NCBI RefSeq assembly: GCF_900155865.1
Contig: NZ_LT707006.1
Coordinates: forward strand, 2,830,577 to 2,894,576
Direction: 5' to 3'
Length of the DNA stretch: 64,000 nucleotides
Origin: Bacteroides bouchesdurhonensis
Lineage (GTDB): Bacteria > Bacteroidota > Bacteroidia > Bacteroidales > Bacteroidaceae
The translations under genes were made by a program, and so were the position numbers. Below, in pieces: positions 9,617 to 59,287 of the stretch. Under the pieces are notes generated by a model that worked only from the letters and a program-made list of their open reading frames with translations, searched no databases and was not told the DNA's origin. Positions within the stretch are counted from its first letter, which is position 1. Each line of letters opens with the position of its first letter.

Positions 9617-9770
9617 ATGCTTTTTAAAAGAAGAAAGTACAGTTTTACCGTAATATTTGATATTTATCTAGTTTGCTTGGCTGAATAGAGAATTATAATA
9701 TATTAATGCATTTTCTTTGTCGGATAGTCTATTTCTCTGGTGATATCAAATAACTATAGTTTAAAATCTA

Positions 9771-9858
9771 ATTGGTTTCTCGTACATGAGTTATTGGGTT
9801 CACGTACGTGATCCATTCGCTTCACGTATGGGAACCCAATAGACCTCGTACGAGAAGC
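9771..9858. repeat. 22-bp lattice array A
   Basis: Four units spaced exactly 22 bp apart, each centred on CGTACG or a variant (CGTACATG at 9781, CGTACG at 9803, CGTATG at 9825, CGTACG at 9847). The first three begin ATTGG, ATTGG, ATTCG. Units 2 and 4 contain perfect dyads (TCACGTACGTGA; CTCGTACGAG). The outer arms TTCTCGTAC/GTACGAGAA and the inner arms ATTGGGTTC/GAACCCAAT also pair, making one nested hairpin. The function is unknown. Confidence 0.8.
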
Positions 9859-9951
9859 GAAGTTATAAAACTCTCAAAATAGATTAATATGATTTTGTAT
9901 TAGACTAAATAATAGCAAGAAATACATAAGATTTCTTGCATAATTTACACT

Positions 9952-35722: not shown

Positions 35723-36700
35723 TTATTCAAATGGATACTTAACTCCCCATTCTTCGCGCAAGGCATCCATCTGTTTCATTATGCGAATCGTTTCGGCATG
35801 TGGCATATAAGGCGATTCCACCCAGCCATTTTCTATGGCTTCGATAGCCGCTGAAATTTCATATTCAAAACCTGTAATTTGTTTAGGAGCCTGATATTCG
35901 GCAATAAGATGATAACTATTGTCTATAACCTTCACTGACTGAGGATTATTAATATTTTCTACGATGATGCAACCTCTATCACCTGAAATAATACCTAAAC
36001 GGTCGGTCTGGGCGTACATAGAACAAGATAGTATTGCCATACGATCAGCGGAATAAAACTGCGTGATGCTATCTTGTGCATCGACTCCTGATTCTGTTTT
36101 TATACAAGTTGTCGATGTGTTCTTGACTTCAGTACCGAAAATCATTGCCGCAAAGTTTAGTGTATATACACCTACATCCAAGAGTGCGCCTCCGGCAAGC
36201 TCTGGTTTTATCAATCTTTCCTTATCGCGAATAACATAACCGAGATTAGCAGTCAGAAAGAAAGGCTTTCCGATTATTTCACTTTGAACTAATTCCGTTA
36301 TTTTCCGGGATAAAGGCATATAGCGAGTCCAAATGGCTTCAGCAATAAATACCCGCTTTTCTTGTGCTAGCTTCAATAATTCTTCTGCTTGACGCGCATT
36401 GGCGGTAAAAGCTTTTTCACATAATACAGGTTTCCCTTTTAGAATGCACATCCTTGCTTGTTCGTAGTGCATGGCATGTGGAGTTGCAATGTAGATTAAA
36501 TCCACAGTCGGGTCGTCTGCCAATTCTTCATAAGATCCATAAGCATGCGAGAAACCCCATTCTTTGGCAAAATTTTCTGATTTCGCAATATCACGTGAAG
36601 CAATCGCATAACGTTCCACTCCTTCCATATTGGCTAACGTGTGTGCCATTTTTCGGGCAATGTGTCCGGCACCGATAATACCTATCTTATAAGTTTTCAT
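35723..36700 (-). CDS. Gfo/Idh/MocA-family NAD(P)-dependent oxidoreductase
   Basis: 325 residues from the ATG at 36700 (MKTYKIGIIGAGHIARKM). The frame is open 40 codons further, but that stretch is AT-rich and not conserved in type, so the inner start is preferred. The Rossmann motif GIIGAGHIA is at residues 7-15, then the EKAFTANARQAEELL helix with the EKP-like catalytic Lys (CEKAF). The C-terminal sheet domain carries GGALLDVGVYTLNFA. The substrate is probably a sugar or cyclitol; no sugar genes adjoin to narrow this. Confidence 0.88.
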   Translation of the reverse strand: MKTYKIGIIGAGHIARKMAHTLANMEGVERYAIASRDIAKSENFAKEWGFSHAYGSYEELADDPTVDLIYIATPHAMHYEQARMCILKGKPVLCEKAFTANARQAEELLKLAQEKRVFIAEAIWTRYMPLSRKITELVQSEIIGKPFFLTANLGYVIRDKERLIKPELAGGALLDVGVYTLNFAAMIFGTEVKNTSTTCIKTESGVDAQDSITQFYSADRMAILSCSMYAQTDRLGIISGDRGCIIVENINNPQSVKVIDNSYHLIAEYQAPKQITGFEYEISAAIEAIENGWVESPYMPHAETIRIMKQMDALREEWGVKYPFE

Positions 36701-37520
36701 ATCTATTACATTTATATTATATAAAGTTGGAGAATGAAGTAATATTATTCCTTTTTTCAAAAATACAAAAAAGGAATAAACGAACCAATTTTTTCTTTCA
36801 TTTAAGTGATGACGTGCCATTAATGAAATTCCTGCAAACGTGGAATATTAAAATGACAAAATGACATTTTGATATTCCTGATCTTCATGAATCGTTTTTT
36901 TTAATGTAGAGGGACTATGAATTGTTTTTTTCAATTATAGAGAGGGTAGGGCTTATCATAGTTTTATATATAGAGCTTCTGAATGAAATATATGTTTGTT
37001 CCTTCCAAAATTCTCTTTCTTTTTGTTGCAGCTTTTGCTCTTTACATCCGTTTTTTGATAGATTCAAAATGCTTGTGTATAACTCCAATCTAGGAGTAAA
37101 TTTGTTGAAAAAGTAAAGATCTCAAACATCATTTCAGGTTTGTCGTCATTATGCAATGCTTTTGATGACACAAAGCGGTGCTTTTAGTGACACTATCCGT
37201 ATATTTTGGTATAATCATCCCATTGTTTTTTCCAAAATATACGGTAGTTTATTCCAAAACATACGGTAGATTATGGCAGAATTACCGTATATTTTACGAT
37301 TTATTGCAATATCTTTATTTATTAGACATCAATATTTTAAAGAACGAGATAGCATATATCTCAGTTTTCTGTGTTAATGTCAGTATAATCAATCAAATGC
37401 TATCTTTATGTCATTTATTAATTTAACTTTTTTGATTGTGATTTTATGTTCTACTCTTTTTTAGATGTATCCAGGCGTAGCGTACTCCTTCATATAATTG
37501 TTTATTGAGTTCTAAACGAT
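36701..37520. other. Long intergenic region with hairpin and repeats
   Basis: No convincing gene. It contains a hairpin GGAATATTAAAATG (36842-36855) / CATTTTGATATTCC (36865-36878) with one wobble, a loose 30-bp direct repeat starting ATGAATCG (36887) and ATGAATTG (36917), and the 22-bp lattice array B (37138-37313). Confidence 0.6.
37138..37313. repeat. 22-bp lattice array B
   Basis: Eight consecutive 22-bp intervals; most start with TTT (37138, 37160, 37182, 37204, 37226, 37248, 37292). Intervals 2 and 3 share TTTT-nn-TGACAC (37160, 37182). Intervals 5 and 6 share CCAAAAyATACGGTAG (37232, 37254). The inverted core CCGTATATTTT occurs at 37197 and 37285, exactly 88 bp (4 x 22) apart. Opposite copies can pair into hairpins. 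No ORF crosses it and the function is unknown. Confidence 0.8.
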
Positions 37521-37715
37521 ATGTATTACCATGGGATTGGTATGCGTCGGAATATAAGTTCTTCACAAAGAGTTTTTAGAATTGGTTATTGTGAAGAAAT
37601 TCTCGATTATTATCATAGAGCACAAGAAATAGCTGTACAAGAGATACAAATAAAAGCTTTACCGGAAATAGAAATGTACAATAATAAAGAATATAATAAA
37701 ATTATCGATTTATAA
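37521..37715 (+). CDS. Short orphan ORF, Sel1-repeat-like fragment
   Basis: 64 residues. The start MYYHGIGMRRNISSSQRVFRI resembles the YYxGxGVxxN core of a Sel1/TPR-like repeat, and DYYHRAQEIAVQEI reads as a helix. One repeat alone would not make a stable domain, so this may be the end of a decayed gene. There is no signal peptide and no clear ribosome site. Coding status is uncertain. Confidence 0.3.
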   Translation: MYYHGIGMRRNISSSQRVFRIGYCEEILDYYHRAQEIAVQEIQIKALPEIEMYNNKEYNKIIDL

Positions 37716-37786: not shown

Positions 37787-37794
37787 TATCTTTG
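37787..37794 (+). promoter_or_regulatory. -7 box for the small lipoprotein gene
   Basis: TATCTTTG, 18 bp before ATG 37813. It excludes the ATG-like codons overlapping it. Confidence 0.55.
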
Positions 37795-37812
37795 TTCTTT
37801 AAATGTATGTTT

Positions 37813-38184
37813 ATGAATAAATCAATAGTTTCTCTGGCAGTTATAACTATAATTTATTTTAGTTCTTGCCAGCCAAAGAATGGGCAAACGACAAATAATG
37901 ATGATCAAGTTATTGATAGCATAACTGCTCATACTGAGGATGAAAAAGTACTTACTGGTGTTATAGAAGACGCTTCAATGAATAATTTCATGTTAATTAC
38001 AGAAAAAGAAGACACTATATTTATTAGTACAATGGATCAGGAACCAAGCGAAGTTAGTGGTTTCGAACTGGGAGATACAGTGAAAGTAAATTATATAGAA
38101 GAGGAAGAAGAGCCAGGATTAAGCACAATTATTACTGCTAAAAAAGTGGTTATAATAGGAAAAAGGAACAAATATACGGAATAA
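37813..38184 (+). CDS. Small putative lipoprotein, hypothetical
   Basis: 123 residues from ATG 37813, chosen because the promoter box at 37787 lies over the earlier in-frame start. Lipoprotein signal MNKSIVSLAVITIIYFSSCQ with lipobox YFSSC. The mature part is acidic and beta-like (VLTGVIEDASMNNFMLITEKEDTIFIST), perhaps a small OB-like barrel (DTVKVNYIEEEEEPGLSTIITAKKVV). No family recognised. It lies 32 bp before the lipocalin-like gene and is probably co-transcribed. Confidence 0.65.
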   Translation: MNKSIVSLAVITIIYFSSCQPKNGQTTNNDDQVIDSITAHTEDEKVLTGVIEDASMNNFMLITEKEDTIFISTMDQEPSEVSGFELGDTVKVNYIEEEEEPGLSTIITAKKVVIIGKRNKYTE

Positions 38185-49641: not shown

Positions 49642-49892
49642 GAAGAAATTCCTAGAACTCTTGAGCTCAGTCTGATACAAGCTCGTTAAACTTTTCATTA
49701 ACTCTTATGTCGCAATCGCAGTAAATGCAATTACCTCCCATATTCTTCAGCTTATTTCCGAGTCCGGTTTTCCGTATCCACATTTTCATTGTATTATAAG
49801 TGATGAACAGAAGTATTAATAGATTAGTTCTTCTCTTCCTATAACAAACTTTATTTTCTTTAATAGTAAAGTTGTTTTTTATCCTTTGCAAT

Positions 49893-49980
49893 CTATAAAC
49901 TGAACTTTCATTTGTATAAATGCAAGTTCAGTTTATGTAAACGCAAGTTCCGTTTATACAACTGCAACTTTTGTTTATAG
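49893..49980. repeat. 21-bp lattice array C
   Basis: Three direct units of exactly 21 bp (49918, 49939, 49960), each of the form AAnyGCAAsTTyyGTTTATrn. They are preceded by an inverted unit (49893-49913) that contains CTATAAACTGAACTT and pairs with the first direct unit. Units differ at a few positions. It is not coding. Confidence 0.8.
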
Positions 49981-50140
49981 TTTATTCCTAATAAAAAATA
50001 ATTTCTCTATCAGAAGAAAAGAAGTTAGGTATTAAAGGAGAGAAAGTTTGTTAATAATAGAATGGATGTTTACTATTAAGGAGTTTAAAAGTTATCTGTC
50101 GTCCATATAATAAAAGAGGATGATAGCAGGAACCGGCAAA

Positions 50141-50237
50141 GGTGATAGGTGATAGATGAGGTGATAGATAAAATAACAACCTATCACCACTCCAAAACAC
50201 GATATACAGCGAGTTTCCGAAGGTTGGTGATAGGTTG
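50141..50237. repeat. GGTGATAG repeat cluster with hairpin
   Basis: GGTGATAG occurs at 50141, 50148, 50160 and 50226, with CTATCACC at 50181. A perfect 12-bp stem CAACCTATCACC (50177-50188) / GGTGATAGGTTG (50226-50237) encloses 37 nt. No ORF. Confidence 0.7.
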
Positions 50238-50360
50238 ATAGAGAAATTGATGTTTTATCTTAGGAGGAAGAAATCAAATAATATTCGCATGAATTCTTCT
50301 GATAATTACTTTGCTGTAACGATTTTGACATACATCAATGTCATTTTTAGTTTCTTTCTT

Positions 50361-59191: not shown

Positions 59192-59280
59192 TATACTGAC
59201 ACTATCCAGTCAGGATGGTGTCAGTATATAGTTGGGATGATGACACTATAAAAGCAGTATAGTGTCATCATCTTTTTTTT
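59191..59280 (+). terminator. Tandem-hairpin terminator; 22-bp lattice array D
   Basis: Hairpin 1: ATATACTGACACTATCC (59191-59207) / GGATGGTGTCAGTATAT (59213-59229). Hairpin 2: GATGATGACACTATA (59236-59250) / TATAGTGTCATCATC (59258-59272), followed by eight T. TGACACTAT recurs 44 bp apart (59197, 59241), and so does GTGTCA (59218, 59262), that is twice 22 bp. The four 22-bp intervals alternate in orientation. The second hairpin is a good intrinsic terminator for the RND operon. Confidence 0.85.
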
Positions 59281-59287
59281 AAGAATA

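Follow-up and report, generated by a model that had tools for sequence, protein, structure and literature searches.

REP/BIME sequences are species-specific palindromic intergenic repeats that occur in clusters, and copies of the repeat also flank the gene of their partner, RAYT. In plasmid iterons and autoregulated operator arrays, repeats of about 22 bp, one per two helical turns, are located next to the gene that encodes the protein binding them. HU-HIG denotes Pfam family PF18291, in which an HU domain is fused to another module; the clade is said to have been named in a comparative study of the HU superfamily.

In Porphyromonas gingivalis, BrickBuilt is characterized in the relevant passages of PMC4596501 as a dispersed intergenic element (19 in ATCC 33277) of imperfect 23-nt tandem units in variable copy number, with a single repeat sequence, a leader and a tail, and inverted repeats at its ends that resemble those of ISPg1/ISPg9. 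The same passages mention 22-nt tandem repeats for strain W83. The HU protein PG0121 of P. gingivalis, with a size of about 10 kDa, is co-transcribed with a capsule operon headed by a 77-bp inverted repeat and binds this repeat in preference to an unrelated 77-mer, according to the corresponding sections of PMC3969353.

Here we describe an array of 22-bp units at positions 37138–37313 of a 64,000-nucleotide stretch of contig NZ_LT707006.1 of Bacteroides bouchesdurhonensis (the window), along with a larger set of such arrays, referred to as lattices. Like BrickBuilt in the passages cited, these are dispersed intergenic tandem units of about 22–23 nt in variable copy number; compared with that description, they differ by their many sequences, their palindromic units, the lack of visible terminal repeats, and their HU-HIG partners. 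As for PG0121 and its 77-bp repeat, as described, an HU-family protein and an inverted repeat would meet at the protein's own operon, although most HU-HIG proteins found here are much larger. Whereas the partner of REP/BIME is a transposase, the partner proposed here is an HU-HIG DNA-binding protein with its 22/23-bp lattice. With their position at the promoter of many HU-HIG genes, the products of which would bind them, the lattices may resemble autoregulated operator arrays; they differ from plasmid iterons and such arrays in being chromosomal and scattered through intergenic DNA, with head-to-head half-sites and many motifs per genome. Searches of the open-access literature on such repeats, HU-HIG, PF18291, PF08800, BT4734, and DUF4248 yielded nothing on this class and no paper on HU-HIG targets; within that literature, the statement of a previous sequence-only reading of the window that no named repeat family is of this kind therefore holds.

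Results

The array at 37138–37313

The array is located between divergent genes, a Gfo/Idh/MocA oxidoreductase gene on the left (35723–36700, minus strand) and an ORF of 130 aa without Pfam match on the right (37792–38184, plus strand). It comprises eight 22-bp intervals with a unit of approximately GATGACACnATCCGTATnTTTT and inverted copies in phase, and has no assigned strand. The sequence-only reading had proposed these eight intervals, which are indeed present, and had counted seven that begin with TTT, where the actual number is six. At lag 22, identity within the array was 0.578 compared to 0.282 ± 0.037 in dinucleotide shuffles; none of 1000 shuffles reached this value at lag 22, nor did the maximum of any shuffle over lags 3–59, and the predicted autocorrelation peak was thus obtained. 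Lags 44, 66, and 88 were also elevated (0.424, 0.409, and 0.477), and no other 176-bp stretch in the window surpassed the lag-22 score. Two units on the plus strand (37164–37207) both contain the core TGACAC, and the second also contains the core CCGTATATTTT. Two inverted units, CCAAAAyATACGGTAG (37225–37274, minus strand), are the only part of the spacer detected by Tandem Repeats Finder (2.3 copies). The first 87 bp of the array, which do not include this strong tandem pair, scored 0.585 at lag 22 (0 of 1000 shuffles). CCGTATATTTT occurs at 37197 and 37285 on the plus strand and at 37234 on the minus strand, with a one-mismatch copy at 37256 (minus strand), and the inverted cores fall on the same 22-bp lattice as the direct ones.

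Neither an HU-HIG gene nor a recognised iteron-like module adjoins the array. A coding role was rejected, as ORF 37178–37426 has no Pfam match, and a remnant of an HU-HIG or BT4734 gene in the spacer was likewise dismissed (best tblastn E value 0.19). Rfam at gathering thresholds gave no known structured RNA at the array and only tRNAs in the window.

Orthologous spacers were identified by means of relatives of the left-neighbour oxidoreductase, using the best 80 loci. The period is retained in B. faecalis (L008; best lag-22 window 0.565) and in Bacteroides sp. STD2_73 (L009; 0.610). In B. faecichinchillae (L007), the spacer is 837 bp shorter and the array is absent. The alignment with L009 contains gaps of -1, +22, and -11 within the array and six gaps of 1 nt each outside of it, with identities of 80.5% in the array and 72.4% in its surroundings; the corresponding identities for L008 are 88.6% and 88.1%. 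The earlier notion of a kept spacing holds for the period in L008 and L009; taken overall, arrays compared between sister species are not more conserved than their surroundings. Positions 37420–37715 of the window, between the lattice and the right-hand gene, have no counterpart in L008 or L009. The genome that contains the window also has a related array close to its polyphosphate kinase gene (L002), and another Bacteroides has one in the corresponding position (L004). A phosphate box, an idea raised by the ppk neighbour, was dropped because these two arrays are located on the 3' side of ppk/ppx.

22-bp lattices in Bacteroides genomes

The number of genomic hits for a 22-bp consensus (up to three mismatches), two, did not exceed that of the backwards control, which argues against a single dispersed repeat family. 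Lag scans were therefore needed and were performed on non-coding DNA in windows of 88 positions at an identity of at least 0.5, with ORFs of at least 110 aa masked. For the genome of B. bouchesdurhonensis, the window and 40 sampled stretches were scanned (864 kb, including 95.6 kb of non-coding DNA; one run of N was dropped). Lag 22 yielded 22 arrays, among which some AT-rich ones near the threshold may be due to chance, compared to at most 7 at all other lags from 12 to 47 except lag 44 (11). The search of other Bacteroides genomes that the sequence-only reading had suggested was also positive, with 13 arrays at lag 22 in 400 kb from five genomes. Lag 22 exceeded all other lags in two of these (G026 and G039) and tied with lag 24 in G059; the remaining two of the five, G021 and G043, displayed no lag-22 excess. 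Among the best 80 oxidoreductase-relative loci, lag-22 arrays numbered six in 20 loci labelled Bacteroides, two of the six being orthologues of the array at 37138–37313 itself, five in 10 Phocaeicola loci, and none in 27 Firmicutes loci, and 23 loci of other Bacteroidales gave three arrays at lag 22 and likewise three at lag 14.

The array at 37138–37313 thus has numerous counterparts with a wide variety of motifs, which the sequence-only reading had overlooked. Motifs within the genome are unrelated to each other (GAAAC..GTTTC, CGTACG, GCAAGTTC, CCAGGTAGAACGAAAC, and TGACAC/CCGTAT), and other genomes contain TTGTACAA, AACTAGTT, and others. The window itself harbors three further lattices, none with an assigned strand. 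The second, of the CGTACG flavour (9766–9875), matches an array upstream of the HU-HIG gene L268. The third (49811–50062) has a period of 21/22 bp, combines the flavours GCAAGTTC and TATTAATAG..AAGTT, and matches the upstream regions of the HU-HIG genes L282 and L281. In the fourth, which is short (59194–59282), TGACAC and GTGTCA alternate at 22-bp steps. The spacer of the array at 9769 is also occupied by a 22-bp lattice in G014 (L168/L151), with a wholly different motif (CGTACG here, GTTAAC in G014). Pieces of this locus from G001, G003, G004, G009, G012, G015, and G017 displayed no clear lattice; one reaches 0.5. Three AACTAGTT-type lattices of G059 (L143:6240-6360, L144:7456-7560, and L145:14427-14540) are accompanied by a similar flanking hairpin of the type CCCCTCT..AGAGGGG, suggesting a defined element with an end.

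Gene context was determined in a sample of 37 loci, 20 of which were taken for their resemblance to GAAAC or CGTACG arrays; L115 and L222 denote one place, as do L090 and L226. The 32 scorable loci were distributed as ++ 17, +- 7, -- 5, and -+ 3, showing no clear side, and a role as terminator or divergent promoter was rejected.

Anatomy of the GAAAC family and length changes of arrays

In the best-sampled family, GAAAC-N5-GTTTC half-sites recur every 22 or 23 bp. The distance from GAAAC to GTTTC is 10 in 116 cases, 9 in 4, and 11 in 3, and that from GTTTC to GAAAC is 12 in 112 cases and 13 in 40. Dyads at 11-bp intervals, as seen in the lag scans, are a consequence of a 22-bp period with one dyad and were not counted as independent support. 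Among the 262 distinct GAAAC units, the inner AAC/GTT bases are kept at about 95% and the outer two per side at about 80%, while loop and mid-spacer bases vary freely; these values and the distances come from a pool including resemblance-chosen loci and G072 and G073 orthologues, and a requirement for 7 of 10 matches per unit inflates conservation and disfavours double changes. Opposed-base double changes occurred 9, 5, 0, 0, and 1 times compared to an expected 12.3, 10.1, 0.7, 0.5, and 0.6, so that compensatory arm changes are not in excess among the 262 units; 7 of the 15 are complementary. For the outer loop pair, complementarity exceeds expectation (0.49 vs 0.34). Kept half-sites together with a variable loop and spacer and no paired-arm excess are what would be expected of dimer operators.

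Length changes between sister species were determined from 19 of 21 alignments, as two with length differences of more than 700 bp were dropped. Inside the arrays, 53 gaps were observed, nine of them exact multiples of 22 (six of -22 and one each of +22, +176, and +198) and 25 of 1–4 nt, the remainder being in between. Several intermediate gaps are whole units that the aligner splits within a locus, e.g. -49 and -17 in L224. Outside, all gaps but three were 1–3 nt. The replication slippage considered in the sequence-only reading is supported in part by the common gain or loss of whole 22-bp units between orthologous arrays, which also differ by many small gaps. Substitutions amounted to 250/2811 (8.9%) in arrays and 370/6734 (5.5%) outside, an excess that may in part reflect misalignment.

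Lattices at HU-HIG genes

The genes near some lattices pointed to HU-HIG. The genome of B. bouchesdurhonensis has 23 HU-HIG matches, and each Bacteroides genome searched has 11–23; the control search also gave matches in E. coli and others. A lattice was present within 400 bp upstream of 10 of the 23 matches compared to 11 of 181 control ORFs whose spacer measured 150 bp or more (Fisher p 7e-6), with a threshold that was set following an initial inspection. Two of the genes, L269 and L271, are close copies of each other and therefore not independent in this test. Among matches of at least 98 bits, the proportion was 8 of 10, and 13 of all 23 are without a lattice by the 400-bp test, including three of 31–38 bits that may be ordinary HU. 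Of 61 matches in four other genomes, 30 loci were examined, and 15 of these have a lattice of lag 21–23 within 600 bp; two of the 15, L312 and L316, resemble G-rich low complexity. A second test gave 21 of 53 HU-HIG loci from five genomes compared to 19 of 609 ORFs of the B. bouchesdurhonensis genome (p 7e-15).

The sequence TAnnTTTG, which we take to be the Bacteroides -7 box, occurs between 60 bp before and 12 bp into the lattice at 11 of these 21 HU-HIG loci; its frequency in 1974 randomly chosen non-coding windows is 7.8% (p 1e-7), and the reverse strand has it at 2 of the 21 loci. The relaxed form TAnnTTT[GA] was found in the same zone at 17 of 21 loci versus 15.6% of the 1974 windows (p 8e-11). 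In 13 of the 21, the box precedes the lattice by 17–25 bp, and the lattice would therefore start just after the start of transcription. At 24 dispersed lattices chosen from lists, such a promoter-like box was present at 4 of 48 edges, no more than background.

Lattice motifs differ between HU-HIG genes, as in GGGCCCGGG at L292 and AACATCCGGATGTT at L307. Common motifs were observed for the pairs L307/L309 (two species) and L281/L282 (paralogues); proteins scoring 0.51–0.62 share no lattice motif. The correlation between motif and protein similarity (Pearson 0.50, Mantel p 5e-4; Spearman 0.11) rests on three pairs.

Gene-less copies, iteron-like modules, and BT4734/VapE genes

Arrays were compared, with shuffles, to the sequences upstream of all 23 HU-HIG genes in the genome. 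The window array at 9769 picked L268 (z 16), that at 49869 picked L282 (z 44) followed by L281 (z 19), and that at 59194 picked none of the 23. Two GAAAC arrays picked different loci, L276 (z 8.0) and L281 (z 5.7), and the GAAAC family is therefore without a clear HU-HIG partner. The best match of the array at 37138 was L280 (z 4.5; score 36 compared to a maximum of 31 in 60 shuffles), in an alignment of about 83 columns that contains one-base gaps; since unlike arrays reach z 5.7, this likeness is no more than suggestive. For the related array L004, L280 was likewise the first pick, although below the shuffle maximum, and L096 picked L267 first. L280 is surrounded by a BT4734/VapE gene, a DUF4248 gene, and an amidase.

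Some dispersed arrays match an HU-HIG locus on both sides of its gene. Five CGTACG arrays were compared to locus L220: L218, L219, and L221 align on both sides of the gene and in order, and L110 and the window array at 9769 match the lattice side alone. L218 aligns to L220 over 392 bp at 80%, spanning the lattice plus 50 bases at the start of the gene, and then over 121 bp at 83% following the stop codon; as judged by this alignment, L218 is the HU-HIG locus L220 minus most of its gene. Similarly, 49814–50062 and 50141–50246 of the window align around the HU-HIG gene of L282, and the gene is missing. The second segment belongs to an iteron-like block, module a (GGTGATAG; 50141–50268, plus strand), and its counterpart in L282 starts at the final bases of the HU-HIG gene. 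The element at 49673–50268 aligned across lattice and module to seven further places in the genome, so that gene-less forms have spread. As in MITE-like elements, dispersed gene-less copies accompany a coding relative, in which an HU-HIG gene occupies the corresponding position. The element is missing from the orthologous spacers of G014, G012, and G074, which are too diverged or rearranged to show the junction. By eye, neither terminal inverted repeats nor target duplications, the marks of a DDE-type MITE, were seen in 13 aligned sequences of the element, which are of one flavour and in part orthologous.

Modules a and b (at least three motifs) were found beside lattices in 11/37 and 6/37 loci compared to 5/562 and 1/562 background windows. 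Three flavours of iteron-like modules, GTGATAG, GTGACAATA, and TGCAGAT/TGCAAGAT, occur in tandem and inverted copies beside many lattices, as at window positions 50141–50268 and in L208, L211, L218, and L222; by appearance, they look like small replication origins. In L207, L212, and L241, a further 22-bp flavour of the TATTAATAGCTATTATGTAGAG type lies near a GAAAC lattice and a TGCAGAT module in several elements.

The genome also contains eight BT4734/VapE genes. The best four (L320–L323) have a lattice on their 5' side, which adjoins as a GAAAC lattice in L321 and L323; L324–L327 have none. By coordinates, only L268 among the ten lattice-bearing HU-HIG genes has a BT4734 match within 5 kb. 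In the pertinent sections of PMC5862659, BT4734-like proteins are listed as archaeo-eukaryotic primases, and VirE/PF05272 domains as predicted mobile-element helicases.

Discussion

We propose, with a probability of roughly 0.6, that the array at 37138–37313 belongs to a class of palindromic operator lattices with a period of 22 bp, sometimes 23 bp, that are read by HU-HIG proteins. As lattices are often located just downstream of the promoters of these HU-like genes, their products are likely readers, and an HU-HIG protein is the most likely reader of the lattices in general. In the best-sampled family, two facing half-sites at a fixed distance recur about every two helical turns, and dimers would therefore be lined up next to one another along a single face of the double helix. 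Many HU-HIG genes possess a private lattice between promoter-like box and start codon, and the protein bound to this leader lattice would repress its own gene. Gene-less copies, consisting of a lattice and often an iteron-like module, are scattered in intergenic DNA and may be coated by the same protein; as secondary sites, they would organise or silence neighbouring promoters. We regard the array at 37138–37313 as an old copy without a gene; its similarity to one HU-HIG locus is weak. Of the two ideas in the sequence-only reading, an array bound by a repeating or oligomeric protein is the better supported in view of half-sites, 22/23-bp spacing, lack of a paired-arm excess, and placement at HU-HIG genes.

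The other idea, that the arrays are neutral minisatellites which arise by slippage duplication and then drift, with 22 bp as a by-product of copying and no protein as reader, appears rather unlikely. It would explain why gaps of whole units and of 1–4 nt are frequent, why substitutions are higher inside arrays than outside, and why the array was lost in L007, and arrays probably do often change their length by whole units via slippage. However, slippage accounts for length change and not for one spacing and one placement among unrelated sequences: 22/23 bp is common to unrelated motifs, half-sites are kept while loop and spacer vary in sequence at constant length, and arrays sit downstream of the promoter-like boxes of HU-HIG genes. 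Even less probable is an action of the palindromes as hairpins in transcripts, be it as terminators, stabilisers, or leader structures. By eye, extended stems can be drawn for some arrays (G059 L143; dyad score 0.92), lattices at HU-HIG genes would be transcribed, and almost half of the double changes between the arms of GAAAC units preserve complementarity; yet such changes are not in excess, loop length is fixed at 5, the dispersed arrays lack boxes above background, and contexts are not mainly convergent (7/32).

The remaining two explanations involve mobile or replicating elements. The lattice could be cargo or an end of a gene-less, MITE-like mobile element consisting of a lattice and module a, b, or c, for which a BT4734/VapE primase-helicase cassette might supply the enzyme. 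This is a serious though not the favoured possibility, and it is compatible with operator lattices read by HU-HIG proteins. The seven further copies of the 49673–50268 element, the orthologous spacers without it, the clustering of modules a and b beside lattices, and the lattices at the best four BT4734/VapE genes all point in this direction, whereas the lack of visible terminal repeats or target duplications, the element-free spacers in which no junction can be discerned, and the absence of a recognised module next to the array at 37138–37313 speak against it. Alternatively, the BT4734/VapE replication protein instead of HU-HIG might bind the arrays as origin-like iterons. The 5'-side lattices of L320–L323, including the GAAAC flavour, and the assignments to primases and mobile-element helicases in the sections of PMC5862659 mentioned above are in line with this idea, which we nevertheless regard as improbable: only eight such genes face 23 HU-HIG matches, L324–L327 are without a lattice, and L268 is the sole lattice-bearing HU-HIG gene with a BT4734 match nearby.

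Extending the operator lattices read by HU-HIG proteins to the Bacteroidales in general is more tentative. There, HU-HIG proteins paired with private 22/23-bp lattices may form a lineage-specific layer of nucleoid organisation or silencing, by self-control and by coating of gene-less copies, in which the lattice is conserved and its sequence changes fast. If each HU-HIG protein has its private lattice, its targets could be read from the genome and the DNA code of the family would become testable. If this is true, part of the unexplained intergenic repeats in gut Bacteroides would gain a candidate function.

Gene-content differences at GAAAC lattices

Two differences in gene content between genomes were observed at GAAAC lattices. 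At the last unit of one lattice, a 2.4-kb insert (L093:11212-13613, corresponding to C1:1611212-1613613 of the B. bouchesdurhonensis genome) carries genes for an AAA_21 ATPase and RloB and is absent from G072, G073, and G074; a function in phage defence is likely. Just past another lattice, G073 (L265:2330-2890, compared to L121 near 12070) contains an extra gene of 186 aa that is absent in B. bouchesdurhonensis.
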